DNA from: Myxococcales bacterium
GTDB taxonomy: Bacteria > Myxococcota_A > Polyangia > Palsa-1104
Reading direction: 5' to 3'
Length of the DNA: 32,731 bases
NCBI GenBank assembly: GCA_003153195.1
Contig: PLXG01000123.1
Coordinates: 1 to 32,731 of the forward strand
Positions 13,827 to 26,951 of this stretch are shown here, one piece after another; position 1 is the first letter of the stretch; every line of letters begins with the position of its first letter. Position numbers and translations under genes: made by a program. The notes below the pieces were generated by a model. The model made no database searches. It worked only from the letters and a program-made list of their open reading frames with translations, and had not been told where the DNA came from.

Positions 13827-16001
13827 TTAAGCCTTCTGGATCTTCCAGGCGTTGTGGATTCTTGGGCTGCGGCGGAAGTCGTAGGGCAAGGTCTTGTCGG
13901 TAATCGACTCGACGGTGAGGCCTTGGGGTGCGTCCATCTTGAATCGGCGAAAGTGATTCGAGAAAAGTAAAATGCCGCCGGGCGAAAGCAGCGCCGCCGA
14001 TTGCGTAATGAGCTGGGTGTGGTCGCGCTGGACGTCGAGAGTGTCTTCCATTTTTTTCGAGTTGGAAAACGTCGGTGGCGCTAAAAAGATCAGGTCGAAC
14101 TTTTCTTCCGACTCGGGCAGCCACTTGAGAACGTCCGCGCGCACCAGCTCATGTTTCTCTTTCGAGAGCTTGTTGCGCTCGAAGTTGAGCACCGCCCAAT
14201 CGAGATAGGTGTTCGAGAGATCGATCGACACCGTCGAGCTCGCGCCGCCCGCCGCCGCGTAGATCGTCGCCGCACCGGTGTAGCTGAACAGGTTCAAAAA
14301 CTTTCGCCCGCGACTGAGCTCGCCAATCAGCCCCCGCAGCCGCCTATGATCGAGAAAGAGTCCGGTGTCAACGTAGTCGCTCAGGTTGACTAGAAATTGG
14401 TGTCCGCCTTCGGTGACCCAGCGGGTGTCACGTACGTTGTCCTGCTTTTCGTATTGACCGTCGCTCTCGCGCTGGCGCCGACGAAACTTCACAAAAATGC
14501 TCTCTGGATCAACGCCGAGAACATCGGGAAGTCGGGCGGTCAGATCGCGCATGCGCCCTTCTGCTTTGCGCTGATCGACGGTCTTCGGATAGGCGTACTC
14601 CTGCACGTTGACGGCCGTCTCGTACACATCGATGGCGACGGCGTAGTCCGGCAGATCGCGATCGTAGACGCGATAACAGCTGATCTTTTCGCGCGCCGCC
14701 CACTTGCGCACATGCTTGAGATTTTTTTGCAGGCGGTTGACGAACATGTCGACGCCGGGGTCGATCGGCATCGGCCGCCGGTAGGCAGGCAGATCACTCG
14801 TGACCGGTGCGCTGGCGATCGGCAGCTCCAGCAGACGACATTCGATGGCGCCGTTATAGACCGTCTCGCGACGCGAAGATTTGAGACCAATCTGCTTTAT
14901 CAGCGACAGATTTCCGCTCAGCACGAACGCGGTCCAGCCGAGAAAGCGTCGGCGTAAAACATCGCCGATGTCGGTGTAGAGTTGTCCGAGATCAGCTTCC
15001 TCACCGAGACGTTCGCCGTACGGCGGGTTCATCACCAACATACCCGGCGGTCCGGGTGGCGGCAGGATGTCGACGAAGTTGCGCGTCTCGAGTTGCACGT
15101 ATTTGCGCAAAAACGCGCGATCCAAATTTACTTCCGTCGCGCGCACCGCTTGCGGATCGATGTCGCTGCCAAACAGCGGCGGAATCTTGGTCTGATCTTC
15201 GCGCGCGCGCGCCTCTTCGATGAGACCGCTCCACAGTTTTTCATCGAACGAAGGCAGCCGCTCGAAACCAAATCGTTTGCGACCGAGACCGGGCGCCCGA
15301 TCGGCCGCAATCATCGCCGCTTCGACGAGAAAGGTGCCCGATCCGCACATCGGATCGAACAGCGGCGCGCCCTTTTTCGCGCGCGAAGGCCAATCGGCCA
15401 GCAGCAGAATCGCCGCCGCTAAATTCTCTTTCAGCGGTGCCGGTGCACCCGGCCGACGATAGCCGCGCAGATGCAGACTACCGCCCGACAGATCGATCGA
15501 AACCTTGGCGGTCTGATTGTCGAGATGAACGTGCACACGCAGCGAGGGATCTTCCAGATCCACCGACGGTCGCTCGCCGGTCTCTTCGCGCATGCGATCG
15601 ACGATCGCATCCTTGGTCTTGAGCGCGCCGAAGTGAGTATTGGTGATGCACGATTCGATCTCGGTGAAGCTCACCGCCAAGGTCGAGTCCGCGCGCAGAT
15701 GCTCGCGCCAATCGATGGCGTGAATGCCGGCGTAGAGCGCGTCTTGATCGGGCGCCGGAAAATCGCCGAGCCCCAGCAAGATTCGGCTGGCCACGCGCGA
15801 CCACAAACAGGCGCGATAACCGACCTCGAGCGAACCTTCAAACGCCACGCCGGCGCGCGTCGGGGCGATCGCGGTCGCCCCAAATTCAGCGAGCTCGGAG
15901 GCTGTCAACGCTTCGAGTCCCCGTGCACAAGTCGCAAAAAAACTGGCCACGGGGGCACCTTGGCATACCTCGACGAGCGCTGCATCTACAGAAACGGCCA
16001 T
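13827..16001 (-). CDS. rlmL: Bifunctional 23S rRNA guanine methyltransferase RlmKL
   Basis: This 724-residue protein matches the RlmL/RlmK fusion (E. coli RlmKL is about 700 residues), which makes m2G2445 and m7G2069 in 23S rRNA. An N-terminal THUMP-containing part (about 20-190) starts FFATCARGLEALTASEL. The first methyltransferase has LFDPMCGSGTFLVEAAMIA and the catalytic VMNPPYGERLGEE. The second (about 530-724) has FLNLFSYTGAATIYAAAGGA and FDLIFLAPPTFSNSKKMED. In that last motif the family normally has Asp-Pro-Pro; here the first residue is Ala (GCG, 14079-14081, residue 641), so the second activity may be weakened. It is a single gene convergent with the NarL-type regulator and divergent from the EXORDIUM-like lipoprotein gene. 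The start has about 20 extra residues relative to E. coli, and no clear Shine-Dalgarno sequence is seen. Confidence 0.93.
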   Translation of the reverse strand: MAVSVDAALVEVCQGAPVASFFATCARGLEALTASELAEFGATAIAPTRAGVAFEGSLEVGYRACLWSRVASRILLGLGDFPAPDQDALYAGIHAIDWREHLRADSTLAVSFTEIESCITNTHFGALKTKDAIVDRMREETGERPSVDLEDPSLRVHVHLDNQTAKVSIDLSGGSLHLRGYRRPGAPAPLKENLAAAILLLADWPSRAKKGAPLFDPMCGSGTFLVEAAMIAADRAPGLGRKRFGFERLPSFDEKLWSGLIEEARAREDQTKIPPLFGSDIDPQAVRATEVNLDRAFLRKYVQLETRNFVDILPPPGPPGMLVMNPPYGERLGEEADLGQLYTDIGDVLRRRFLGWTAFVLSGNLSLIKQIGLKSSRRETVYNGAIECRLLELPIASAPVTSDLPAYRRPMPIDPGVDMFVNRLQKNLKHVRKWAAREKISCYRVYDRDLPDYAVAIDVYETAVNVQEYAYPKTVDQRKAEGRMRDLTARLPDVLGVDPESIFVKFRRRQRESDGQYEKQDNVRDTRWVTEGGHQFLVNLSDYVDTGLFLDHRRLRGLIGELSRGRKFLNLFSYTGAATIYAAAGGASSTVSIDLSNTYLDWAVLNFERNKLSKEKHELVRADVLKWLPESEEKFDLIFLAPPTFSNSKKMEDTLDVQRDHTQLITQSAALLSPGGILLFSNHFRRFKMDAPQGLTVESITDKTLPYDFRRSPRIHNAWKIQKA

Positions 16002-23207: not shown

Positions 23208-25931
23208 ATGGACTACAAAGCTACGCTCAACCTGCCCGAGACCGATTTGGCCATGAAGGCCGACCTGGCGAAACGCGAGCCAGAGCTGGTGAAACGATGG
23301 GAAGACGAGCATCTATACGCGCGGATTTTAGAAGCACGGCGCGCGGCTGGAAGCCCGACCTTCGTGCTGCACGATGGGCCGCCGTACGCCAACGGCAACA
23401 TTCACTATGGGCACATCCTCAATAAGATCCTGAAGGACATGGTCTGTAAGTACCGGACCATGGCCGGCCACTACGTCGAATACAAGCCGGGGTGGGATTG
23501 TCACGGATTGCCGATCGAGCTGGCGGTGCTGCGCGAGCACGGCGACAAAGCGGCCAAGATGTCGGCGGTCGAAATTCGTCAGGCGTGCAATGCCTACGCG
23601 CGTAAATGGGTGGCGACGCAGACCGACGAGTTCAAGCGACTCGGCGTGTTTGGAACGTGGGACAAGCCCTATCTCACGCTCGATAAATCCTACGAGGCGA
23701 CCATCGTTCGGCAGCTGGCCGCATTCGCCGAAAAGAAGTGGCTCTATCAGGCGAAGAAGCCGGTGCACTGGTGCTCGTCGGATCGCACCGCGCTGGCCGA
23801 GGCGGAGATCGAGTACGACGAGGCGCATACGTCGCCGTCGATCTATGTGGCGTTCAAATTGCCGGGCGAAAAATTATTCGCGGTCATTTGGACCACTACG
23901 CCGTGGACCCTGCCGGCCAACTGGGCGATCGCCTACAATCCAGAGTTTTCGTACGTCACGGTTTCCGCCAACGGATCTCGATATGTCGTCGCGGAGAAAT
24001 TGGCAGACACATTCGTAAAAGTTTGCGGGCTCACCGAAGAGGGTGCGCGCGCGCCGTTTGCGACGGAAAATTTCGCGCAGCTCAAGGCCGCGCGTCATCC
24101 GTTTTACGATCGCGAATCGAAATTGTTGCCGGCGGATTACGTGACGCTCGAACAGGGAACCGGTCTGGTGCACACCGCGCCGGGACACGGCGTCGACGAT
24201 TACGGTCTCGGCATCAAGTTCGGGCTTCCCGTCGATGCGCCGGTGGACGACGGCGGAAAAATGACGTCGGAAGGAGCGTGGAAGGGACTTTTCGTTTTCA
24301 AGGGCAATCCGCTGGTGATTGCCCAGCTGCAGGAAGTCGGCGCGCTGCTTTCGCCGCCGGATCTAAAGGTCACGCACGCCTACCCAATTTGTTGGCGCTG
24401 CAAGAACGCGGTGATCTTCCGCGCGACCTGGCAGTGGTTCGCCGCGCTCGACGACAAAAATGGTTTGGTGAAATCGAATTTGCGCGAGACCGCGCTCGAT
24501 CAAATCGAAAAGACCGAGTGGATTCCGCCGTGGGGAAAAAATCGCATTCGCGGCATGATCGAAAACCGTCCCGACTGGGTGCTCTCGCGCCAGCGGGTGT
24601 GGGGCGTACCGATTCCCGTTTTTTATAAAGTTGAAGGCGACAAACGCACCGCCATCGCCGATCCCAAGATCATGGAGCACATCGCGTCGCTGTTTGCCGA
24701 GCATGGCGCCGACGTCTGGTTCGAGCGCGATGCCGCAGCGCTGCTTCCGCCCGACTATCCAGCGGGGAATTACGAAAAAGGTCAGGACATCGTCGACGTC
24801 TGGTTCGAGTCGGGCGTGTCGGGCGCGGCGGTTTGCAAAGGTCGACCCGGGCTCGACAGCTCGACCTCGACCGATCCGCGCTATGTCGATCTCTACTTGG
24901 AAGGATCGGATCAACATCGCGGCTGGTTTCACTCTTCGCTTTTGACCGGCTGCGCGGTCGATGGACACGCGCCCTATCGCGCAGTGCTCACCCACGGCTT
25001 CGTGCTCGACGAACGCGGCAAGCCCTATTCAAAAAGTGAAATCGAAAAGGCGCGACGCGAAGGCAAGAAGGTCGAATACATTCCGCCCGGTGATGTCCTC
25101 AAGCAGCAGGGCGCGGAGCTTTTGCGCATGTGGGCGGCGCAGGCCGACTTCAGAAACGACGTCGCCTATTCGCGCGGACATCTCACCCAGCTCGGTGAGT
25201 CCTATCGCAAGATTCGCAACACGGCGCGTTTTCTCCTCGGCAACTTGAAGGATTTCGATCCCGACGCGCCGCGCGATGGCAAACCGGATCTACTCGATGC
25301 GCATCAGGCCGAACGCACCAGCGAGCTTCTGCGTCTCGGAAACGAGGCCTACGCCAACTACGAATTCCACGTGGTGCTTCGCCTGGTGCTCGAGTTCTGC
25401 ACCGTCGATCTGTCGGCGCTCTACTGCGATGTCCGCAAAGATCGGCTCTACTGCGACGGCAAGAACACGGCAGAGCGGCGCGCCACCCAAGGCGTGCTGT
25501 ACGACGCCCTGCGGGCCATGATCACCCTGCTGGCACCGATCTGCTGCTTTACCGCCGAAGAGCTGTGGTCGCACATGCCGCGAAAAAAGAGCGATCCGTC
25601 CAGCGTGCATCTCGCGCTTCTCGAATCGCCGGCGAAAATTGAGGCGCACACGGCGGCGATGCCCTCGCTGCTCGCCATGCGTTCGCTGGTGCAAAAAGAG
25701 CTGGAGCCGTTCCGCGCGCAAAAAAAGAGCTCGCTCGACGCGGAGGTCACCGTCACCACCGAAGATGCGGCACTGCTCGACGTGGATCCGATCTTCCTCG
25801 CCGATCTATTCATCGTTTCGAAGATCACCGTCAAAAAAGGCGCCGAGCATGTCGCCATCGCCGAAGCCAGCGGTCACAAATGCGAGCGCTGTTGGAAATG
25901 GACGCCGGATGAACCGATCTGCGCGCGCTGA
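23208..25931 (+). CDS. ileS: Isoleucyl-tRNA synthetase
   Basis: This 907-residue class I synthetase charges tRNA-Ile. The HIGH motif reads HYGH (residues 66-69, in [15 protein letters not shown]). The CP1 editing domain shows [17 protein letters not shown] and [17 protein letters not shown]. The second signature reads KPYSKS (about residues 604-610) instead of KMSKS, followed by a Lys/Arg-rich insertion before GAELLRMW. The C-terminal zinc motif begins HKCERCWKW and PICAR, then TGA stands where the last Cys (normally CxRC) is expected. Five more codons (KKAGG) and a TAG follow in frame, six bases before the lspA start. The protein is therefore either truncated by a TGC-to-TGA change or read through. 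It is first in the ileS-lspA-lspA-lgt operon, an arrangement echoing E. coli ileS-lspA. The start has no Shine-Dalgarno sequence. Confidence 0.95.
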
Positions 25932-25955
25932 AAGAAAGCGGGCGGCTAGCTCGCC

Positions 25956-26471
25956 GTGCGCAGCTCGAAATACAAATGGTTCGTGCTCGCATTCCTGATG
26001 AGCTTCGGGCTCGATCAGGCGTCGAAGGAATGGGCGCGTCAGGTGCTCAAGCCCAAGTTGCCCGACTGGGTGACGGTAGTGCACGGCTATTTCGATCTGC
26101 GCTATTCGGAAAACGCCGGCTCCGCGTTCGGACTCTTTCGCCGATTGCCGAGCGGCCGAACCTTTTTGCTCTGCATCGGCGTGGCCGCGCTGGTGGCGCT
26201 CAGCTACTATTTGCGAAAGGCCGAGCCCGGACGCGGACGATTTGGCGCCGAGCTGGGACTTCTGGCCGGCGGAACCTTGGGAAATGTCGCCGATCGAGTA
26301 CTATTCGGCCGAGTGACCGACTTCATCGTTTGGAAATTGGGCGCGCGCGAGTGGCCCACCTTCAACATCGCCGATGCCGCGCTGGTGATTGGTCTGGCTG
26401 CCATGTTTTTCGAGACTACTCCCGGCAGCGAGCGAACGGTCGCGCGAGCCACCACAGCAAAGGACACCTGA
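25956..26471 (+). CDS. lspA: Lipoprotein signal peptidase (signal peptidase II), copy 1
   Basis: This 171-residue inner-membrane aspartyl protease cleaves the signal peptide of diacylglyceryl-modified prolipoproteins. It shows the family blocks FGLDQASKEWARQ, RYSENAGSAFGLF, the first catalytic Asp in GGTLGNVADRVLFGRVTDFI and the second in TFNIADAALVIG, with four hydrophobic segments. It starts at GTG 25 bases after the ileS TGA and six bases after the in-frame TAG beyond it. A C-terminal polar tail (SERTVARATTAKDT) is longer than usual. The next lspA copy abuts directly (TGA-TTG). Both Asp residues are present, so it should be active. Confidence 0.95.
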   Translation: MRSSKYKWFVLAFLMSFGLDQASKEWARQVLKPKLPDWVTVVHGYFDLRYSENAGSAFGLFRRLPSGRTFLLCIGVAALVALSYYLRKAEPGRGRFGAELGLLAGGTLGNVADRVLFGRVTDFIVWKLGAREWPTFNIADAALVIGLAAMFFETTPGSERTVARATTAKDT

Positions 26472-26951
26472 TTGTCACGAAAATATCGACTCTTTACCAT
26501 CTACTTCCTCTTGTCGCTGATCCTCGATCAGGCGTCGAAGATCTGGGCGCGTCAAACGCTCAAGCCACGCTTCGATGCGATGGTGATCATTCCCAACTTC
26601 TTCGATCTGCGCTTCGCTGAAAATCCCGGCACCGCGTTTTCGCTCTTGCACGATCTGTCGAATGGTCGCGTTGTGCTGGCTGCCATCGGTATTGGCGCGC
26701 TCGGTCTGATGCTGGTGTGGCTCAAGCGACTTCCATCTGATTCTGGCGTGCTGGCCATCGCGCTCGGGCTCATCGCCGGCGGTGCACTCGGCAACATCAT
26801 CGATCGCGTGCAGTTCGGAAAAGTCACCGACTTCATCGTCTGGAAGGTGAACACCCATCAGTGGCCCACCTTCAACATCGCCGACGCCACGCTGGTGATC
26901 GGCATCGGCTTGGCGCTCATCTACGACAAGAAGAAGCCCGCCACGAAGTAA
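26472..26951 (+). CDS. lspA: Lipoprotein signal peptidase (signal peptidase II), copy 2
   Basis: This second, tandem LspA of 159 residues is clearly paralogous to the first: LDQASKIWARQTLKPR, RFAENPGTAFSLL, the catalytic Asp residues in GGALGNIIDRVQFGKVTDFI and TFNIADATLVIG. It begins at TTG immediately after the first copy's TGA, with AAGGA seven bases upstream. Its TAA overlaps the lgt ATG (TAATG). The two copies differ at many positions between shared blocks, so the duplication is not recent. Multiple LspA proteins are known in myxobacteria, where LspA is the target of the antibiotic myxovirescin (TA). Division of substrates or antibiotic tolerance are possible reasons for keeping both. 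Confidence 0.95.
   Translation: MSRKYRLFTIYFLLSLILDQASKIWARQTLKPRFDAMVIIPNFFDLRFAENPGTAFSLLHDLSNGRVVLAAIGIGALGLMLVWLKRLPSDSGVLAIALGLIAGGALGNIIDRVQFGKVTDFIVWKVNTHQWPTFNIADATLVIGIGLALIYDKKKPATK

Follow-up and report, generated by a model that had tools for sequence, protein, structure and literature searches.

The C-terminal zinc motif of type 1 isoleucyl-tRNA synthetases (IleRS) has an essential role in aminoacylation according to the portion of PMC4861432 citing Glasfeld et al. 1996, whereas type 2 IleRS functions without any Cys4 cluster (PMC4861432, PMC10485003). For selenocysteine (Sec) insertion in bacteria, the bacterial SECIS (bSECIS) model specifies a stem of 4-16 bp, a loop of 3-9 nt with a G in its first two positions, a distance of 16-37 nt from the UGA and an MFE of at most -7.5 (PMC13188914). 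In a 2026 selenoproteome review, a tRNA synthetase is mentioned twice, neither time as a selenoprotein entry.

The DNA analyzed here, referred to as the window, is a stretch of 32,731 nucleotides corresponding to contig 134 (1-32731) of a metagenome-assembled genome (MAG) with 511 contigs, a size of 5.56 Mb and an estimated completeness of 71.7%, whose closest public relatives are MAGs labelled Polyangium sp. and Myxococcales bacterium. It contains on the forward strand, at 23208-25931, an ileS gene whose 907-residue product was assigned to type 1 (bacterial) IleRS by profile search (TIGR00392 equivalog, 780 bits against a cut-off of 621.4) and was 67-71% identical to IleS of three family relatives. 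After an AAA codon, the 3′ end of the gene reads TGC GAG CGC TGT TGG (25881-25895, forward strand), encoding the first zinc knuckle, CERC, with the first two Cys ligands and a Trp; these residues are the same in relatives L031 and L032. Following AAA TGG ACG CCG and GAT GAA CCG ATC, the second knuckle (25920-25931, forward strand) consists of TGC (25920-25922) for the third Cys, GCG for Ala, CGC for Arg and, at the place of the fourth Cys, an in-frame TGA (25929-25931, forward strand). The five codons AAG AAA GCG GGC GGC (KKAGG) and a TAG (25947-25949) lie beyond it at 25932-25949 on the same strand and are probably the former C-terminal tail. As written, the four-cysteine zinc cluster of the window IleS is thus incomplete, with three Cys codons and a TGA for the fourth. 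The family assignment rests on the whole protein; the missing fourth Cys reflects the allele or the assembly and does not bear on that assignment. At the DNA level, the two knuckles form an 18-nt direct repeat (25881-25898 and 25920-25937), 78% identical and spaced by 39 nt.

Six bases (25950-25955) separate the TAG from the GTG start, at 25956, of the next gene of the operon, lspA, encoding signal peptidase II (25956-26471, forward strand; PF01252 Peptidase_A8, 108.8 bits), which itself ends with TGA. A preliminary description of this DNA had reported the TGA, the KKAGG codons, the TAG and the lspA GTG at these positions, and its coordinates and reading were correct. Directly 3′ of ileS, lspA is present as a tandem pair (25956-26471 and 26472-26951), and both copies keep the GNxxDR-type and FNIAD motifs. 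Because family relatives L032 and L033 likewise have two copies, the duplication is conserved in the family.

The ileS 3′ end was readable in three family relatives (L031, L032 and L033), and in 3/3 the codon aligned to the window TGA is TGC and the next gene is lspA. Their second knuckles and tails read CARC-QTAVERKG, CERC-QAAVAIPGKA and CARC-QAAVTARGAA, which agrees with the placement of the TGA, in the preliminary description, exactly at the fourth Cys of CxxC...CxxC. That description had also considered that IleS of relatives might naturally end before this residue; the close relatives end no earlier, and their tails after the fourth Cys comprise about 8-11 residues, compared with five codons in the window, and are unconserved in sequence. 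Cys was present at this position in all of the more distant bacterial-type ileS tails that were read (other members of the class, Thermodesulfobacteria and others), and all four Cys were kept in every type 1 ileS tail read from relatives. When 318 genomes of the class were searched for the knuckle pattern with TGA in the fourth place, only the window and two unrelated, non-ileS places were recovered. The TGY version of the pattern recovered about five genuine ileS genes together with chance places, so this strict pattern provides a supporting result rather than a census.

At the fourth-Cys codon the window thus differs from its relatives by a single third-position change (TGC to TGA). A frameshift was considered in place of a substitution and rejected, as the alignment to L031 and L032 is free of indels in the knuckles through the TGA codon. 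The window retains the first three Cys ligands and the block CERCWKWTP, and the IleS it encodes is 56-76% identical to that of relatives in the last 25 residues, compared with 52-57% in the last 60. A zinc domain this free of decay, in its three ligands, in CERCWKWTP and over the last 25 residues, argues against a long-standing loss, from which we infer a change that arose recently, is at low frequency or exists in the consensus only.

The source assembly was examined for signs of other errors and of an altered genetic code. Among approximately 50 stretches aligned to relatives (15.7 thousand residues), no other clear mid-gene stop was seen; five further flagged stops were at the ends of alignments or in apparent shadow frames, as judged by eye. 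Base errors are therefore infrequent in this assembly, which weighs against a consensus error at the TGA. The MAG nevertheless holds at least one suspicious junction, between half of selD and part of a gene of the radical SAM type. In this fusion (L089:1-2739, complement; G000 contig 108 near 15238-15693), selD contributes its first half (profile positions 2-156) and, at about one residue, runs in frame into the later portion of a gene for a B12-binding radical SAM protein (matching TIGR03960 from position 219 of the profile); the junction is either a chimera created by assembly or a deletion that brought the two genes together. Reassignment of TGA was rejected, because the identified tRNAs include no suppressor and the aligned stretches show no further clear stop within a gene; the only tRNA-Trp found in the genome carries the normal anticodon, CCA. 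In the host, TGA serves as an ordinary stop, with no sign of a reassigned code.

The preferred reading is that ileS, single-copy and otherwise intact, shows an ordinary stop at its fourth-ligand codon through one third-position difference, TGC to TGA, and that translation would be expected to terminate there. The TGA would have arisen either as a consensus base error in a fragmented MAG or as a nonsense allele of recent origin, probably at low frequency in the sampled population; if translated as written, the product would be an IleRS of 907 residues lacking both the fourth ligand and the short tail. The evidence makes it probable that the TGA is an error of this kind or a nonsense allele that is rare or recent, and not a recoding site. 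The preliminary description had offered nonsense change, sequencing error, readthrough and Sec insertion without ranking them. The first two survive and are favored, while readthrough is without positive evidence and Sec insertion is unsupported.

Next in standing is a stop that is real and fixed in the lineage, with a truncated IleRS that works well enough. Zinc might then be held by three Cys, with the fourth position taken by water, a His nearby or the carboxylate of the new C-terminus, or the last knuckle might be dispensable. Such an enzyme is consistent with the good preservation of ileS elsewhere, with the lack of other clear mid-gene stops in the sampled assembly and with a loss confined to the last ligand and a short tail that is itself unconserved, as is the existence of type 2 IleRS, which manages without the cluster (PMC4861432, PMC10485003). 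Against it stand the four Cys seen in all type 1 tails that were read and the reported requirement for the motif in type 1 aminoacylation (PMC4861432, in the portion citing Glasfeld et al. 1996). Moreover, just one ileS was found over the cut-off in the genome of the window and in each of its complete relatives, and a second, rescuing ileS over the cut-off was sought in that genome and not found. Because ileS is single-copy and the Cys4 cluster is reported to be essential, a fixed null allele is unlikely. We regard a genuine, tolerated truncation as a less likely but still plausible account, and as the foremost of the alternatives to consensus error or a recent allele.

UGA is the leakiest stop codon in bacteria, and a near-cognate tRNA could in principle read the TGA at a low rate, so that full-length IleRS terminating at the TAG would be made in sufficient amounts. 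The second in-frame stop is only five codons on, and the resulting tail would be only slightly shorter than those of the relatives. However, neither a recoding element nor exceptional structure was found at the site: the folding energy of the stretch after the TGA was ordinary relative to shuffled sequence (z = -0.34), and an Rfam search of the TGA region gave no match at E up to 5. A low rate of readthrough would also be costly for an essential enzyme, and the sole tRNA-Trp found is of the normal type. This explanation is accordingly improbable.

A TGA aligned to a conserved CxxC Cys is the usual signature of a selenoprotein gene, and Sec at this codon would make a Sec-for-Cys zinc ligand in IleRS. 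The lineage is Sec-capable, since family relatives carry selA, selB and selD over the cut-off (4/4) and tRNA-Sec (3/4). In the genome of the window, selA, selB and tRNA-Sec were not found and selD is represented by its first half only; this absence is weak evidence, because the incomplete MAG (71.7%) also lacks both RF1 and RF2, which are present in the three relatives searched. The best of the SelB-like matches in the host was rejected as an apparent TypA-type GTPase fragment, named from its sequence and not by family search. An RF00031 search of the genome was uninformative, since the control genomes gave no match either. The selD match holds one in-frame TGA in three family genomes, G001, G004 and G002 (L086, L087 and L088), in which SelD is therefore probably itself a selenoprotein, judging from sequence; the selD stretch found in G003 and in the genome of the window has Cys instead.

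The site itself is a better test of Sec insertion than the absence of machinery. A script that scored uninterrupted stems found no hairpin fitting the bSECIS model in the 60 nt 3′ of the TGA, and because 66 of the 905 TGAs in the window (7.3%) pass the same script, a pass would have meant little. The GGCG...CGCC stem pointed out in the preliminary description does exist. A strong GC-rich hairpin after the TGA (25938-25961, forward strand) falls outside the bSECIS model, its loops beginning just 11-15 nt from the TGA. The UGA is aligned to the Cys of homologues and is followed by just five unconserved codons. Given, in addition, that relatives have TGC and none has TGA at this codon, that a Cys with a structural, zinc-binding role does not form a redox site and that neither mention of a tRNA synthetase in the 2026 review concerns a selenoprotein entry, insertion of Sec at the TGA is very improbable, and equally remote is the broader proposal that the TGA is decoded as Sec (through an atypical SECIS) or as Cys, such that a recoded stop would specify the last zinc ligand of an essential synthetase.

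As found, the observation is a minor one. It cautions against taking one in-frame TGA at a conserved Cys, seen in a single draft MAG, as evidence for a selenoprotein. If the stop were real and fixed, the gene would represent a type 1 IleRS that survives the loss of its fourth zinc ligand, and would put the essentiality of the Cys4 cluster outside E. coli to the test.

Compared with known systems, the locus resembles a bacterial selenoprotein gene in that its TGA is aligned to a CxxC Cys, coding sequence continues to a second stop and its relatives have Sec machinery; it differs in that neither a SECIS-model hairpin nor complete Sec machinery was found, the Cys is structural and not redox, and the tail is five unconserved codons. 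Type 2 (eukaryote-like) IleRS provides a precedent for an enzyme that works without a C-terminal Cys4 cluster, but it is a separate sequence family and the window enzyme is clearly type 1. Although its fourth Cys codon is TGA and the protein as written is without the last ligand and tail, the window gene shares with type 1 IleS (TIGR00392) a full-length core, the anticodon-binding domain, the first three zinc cysteines and a position directly before lspA.
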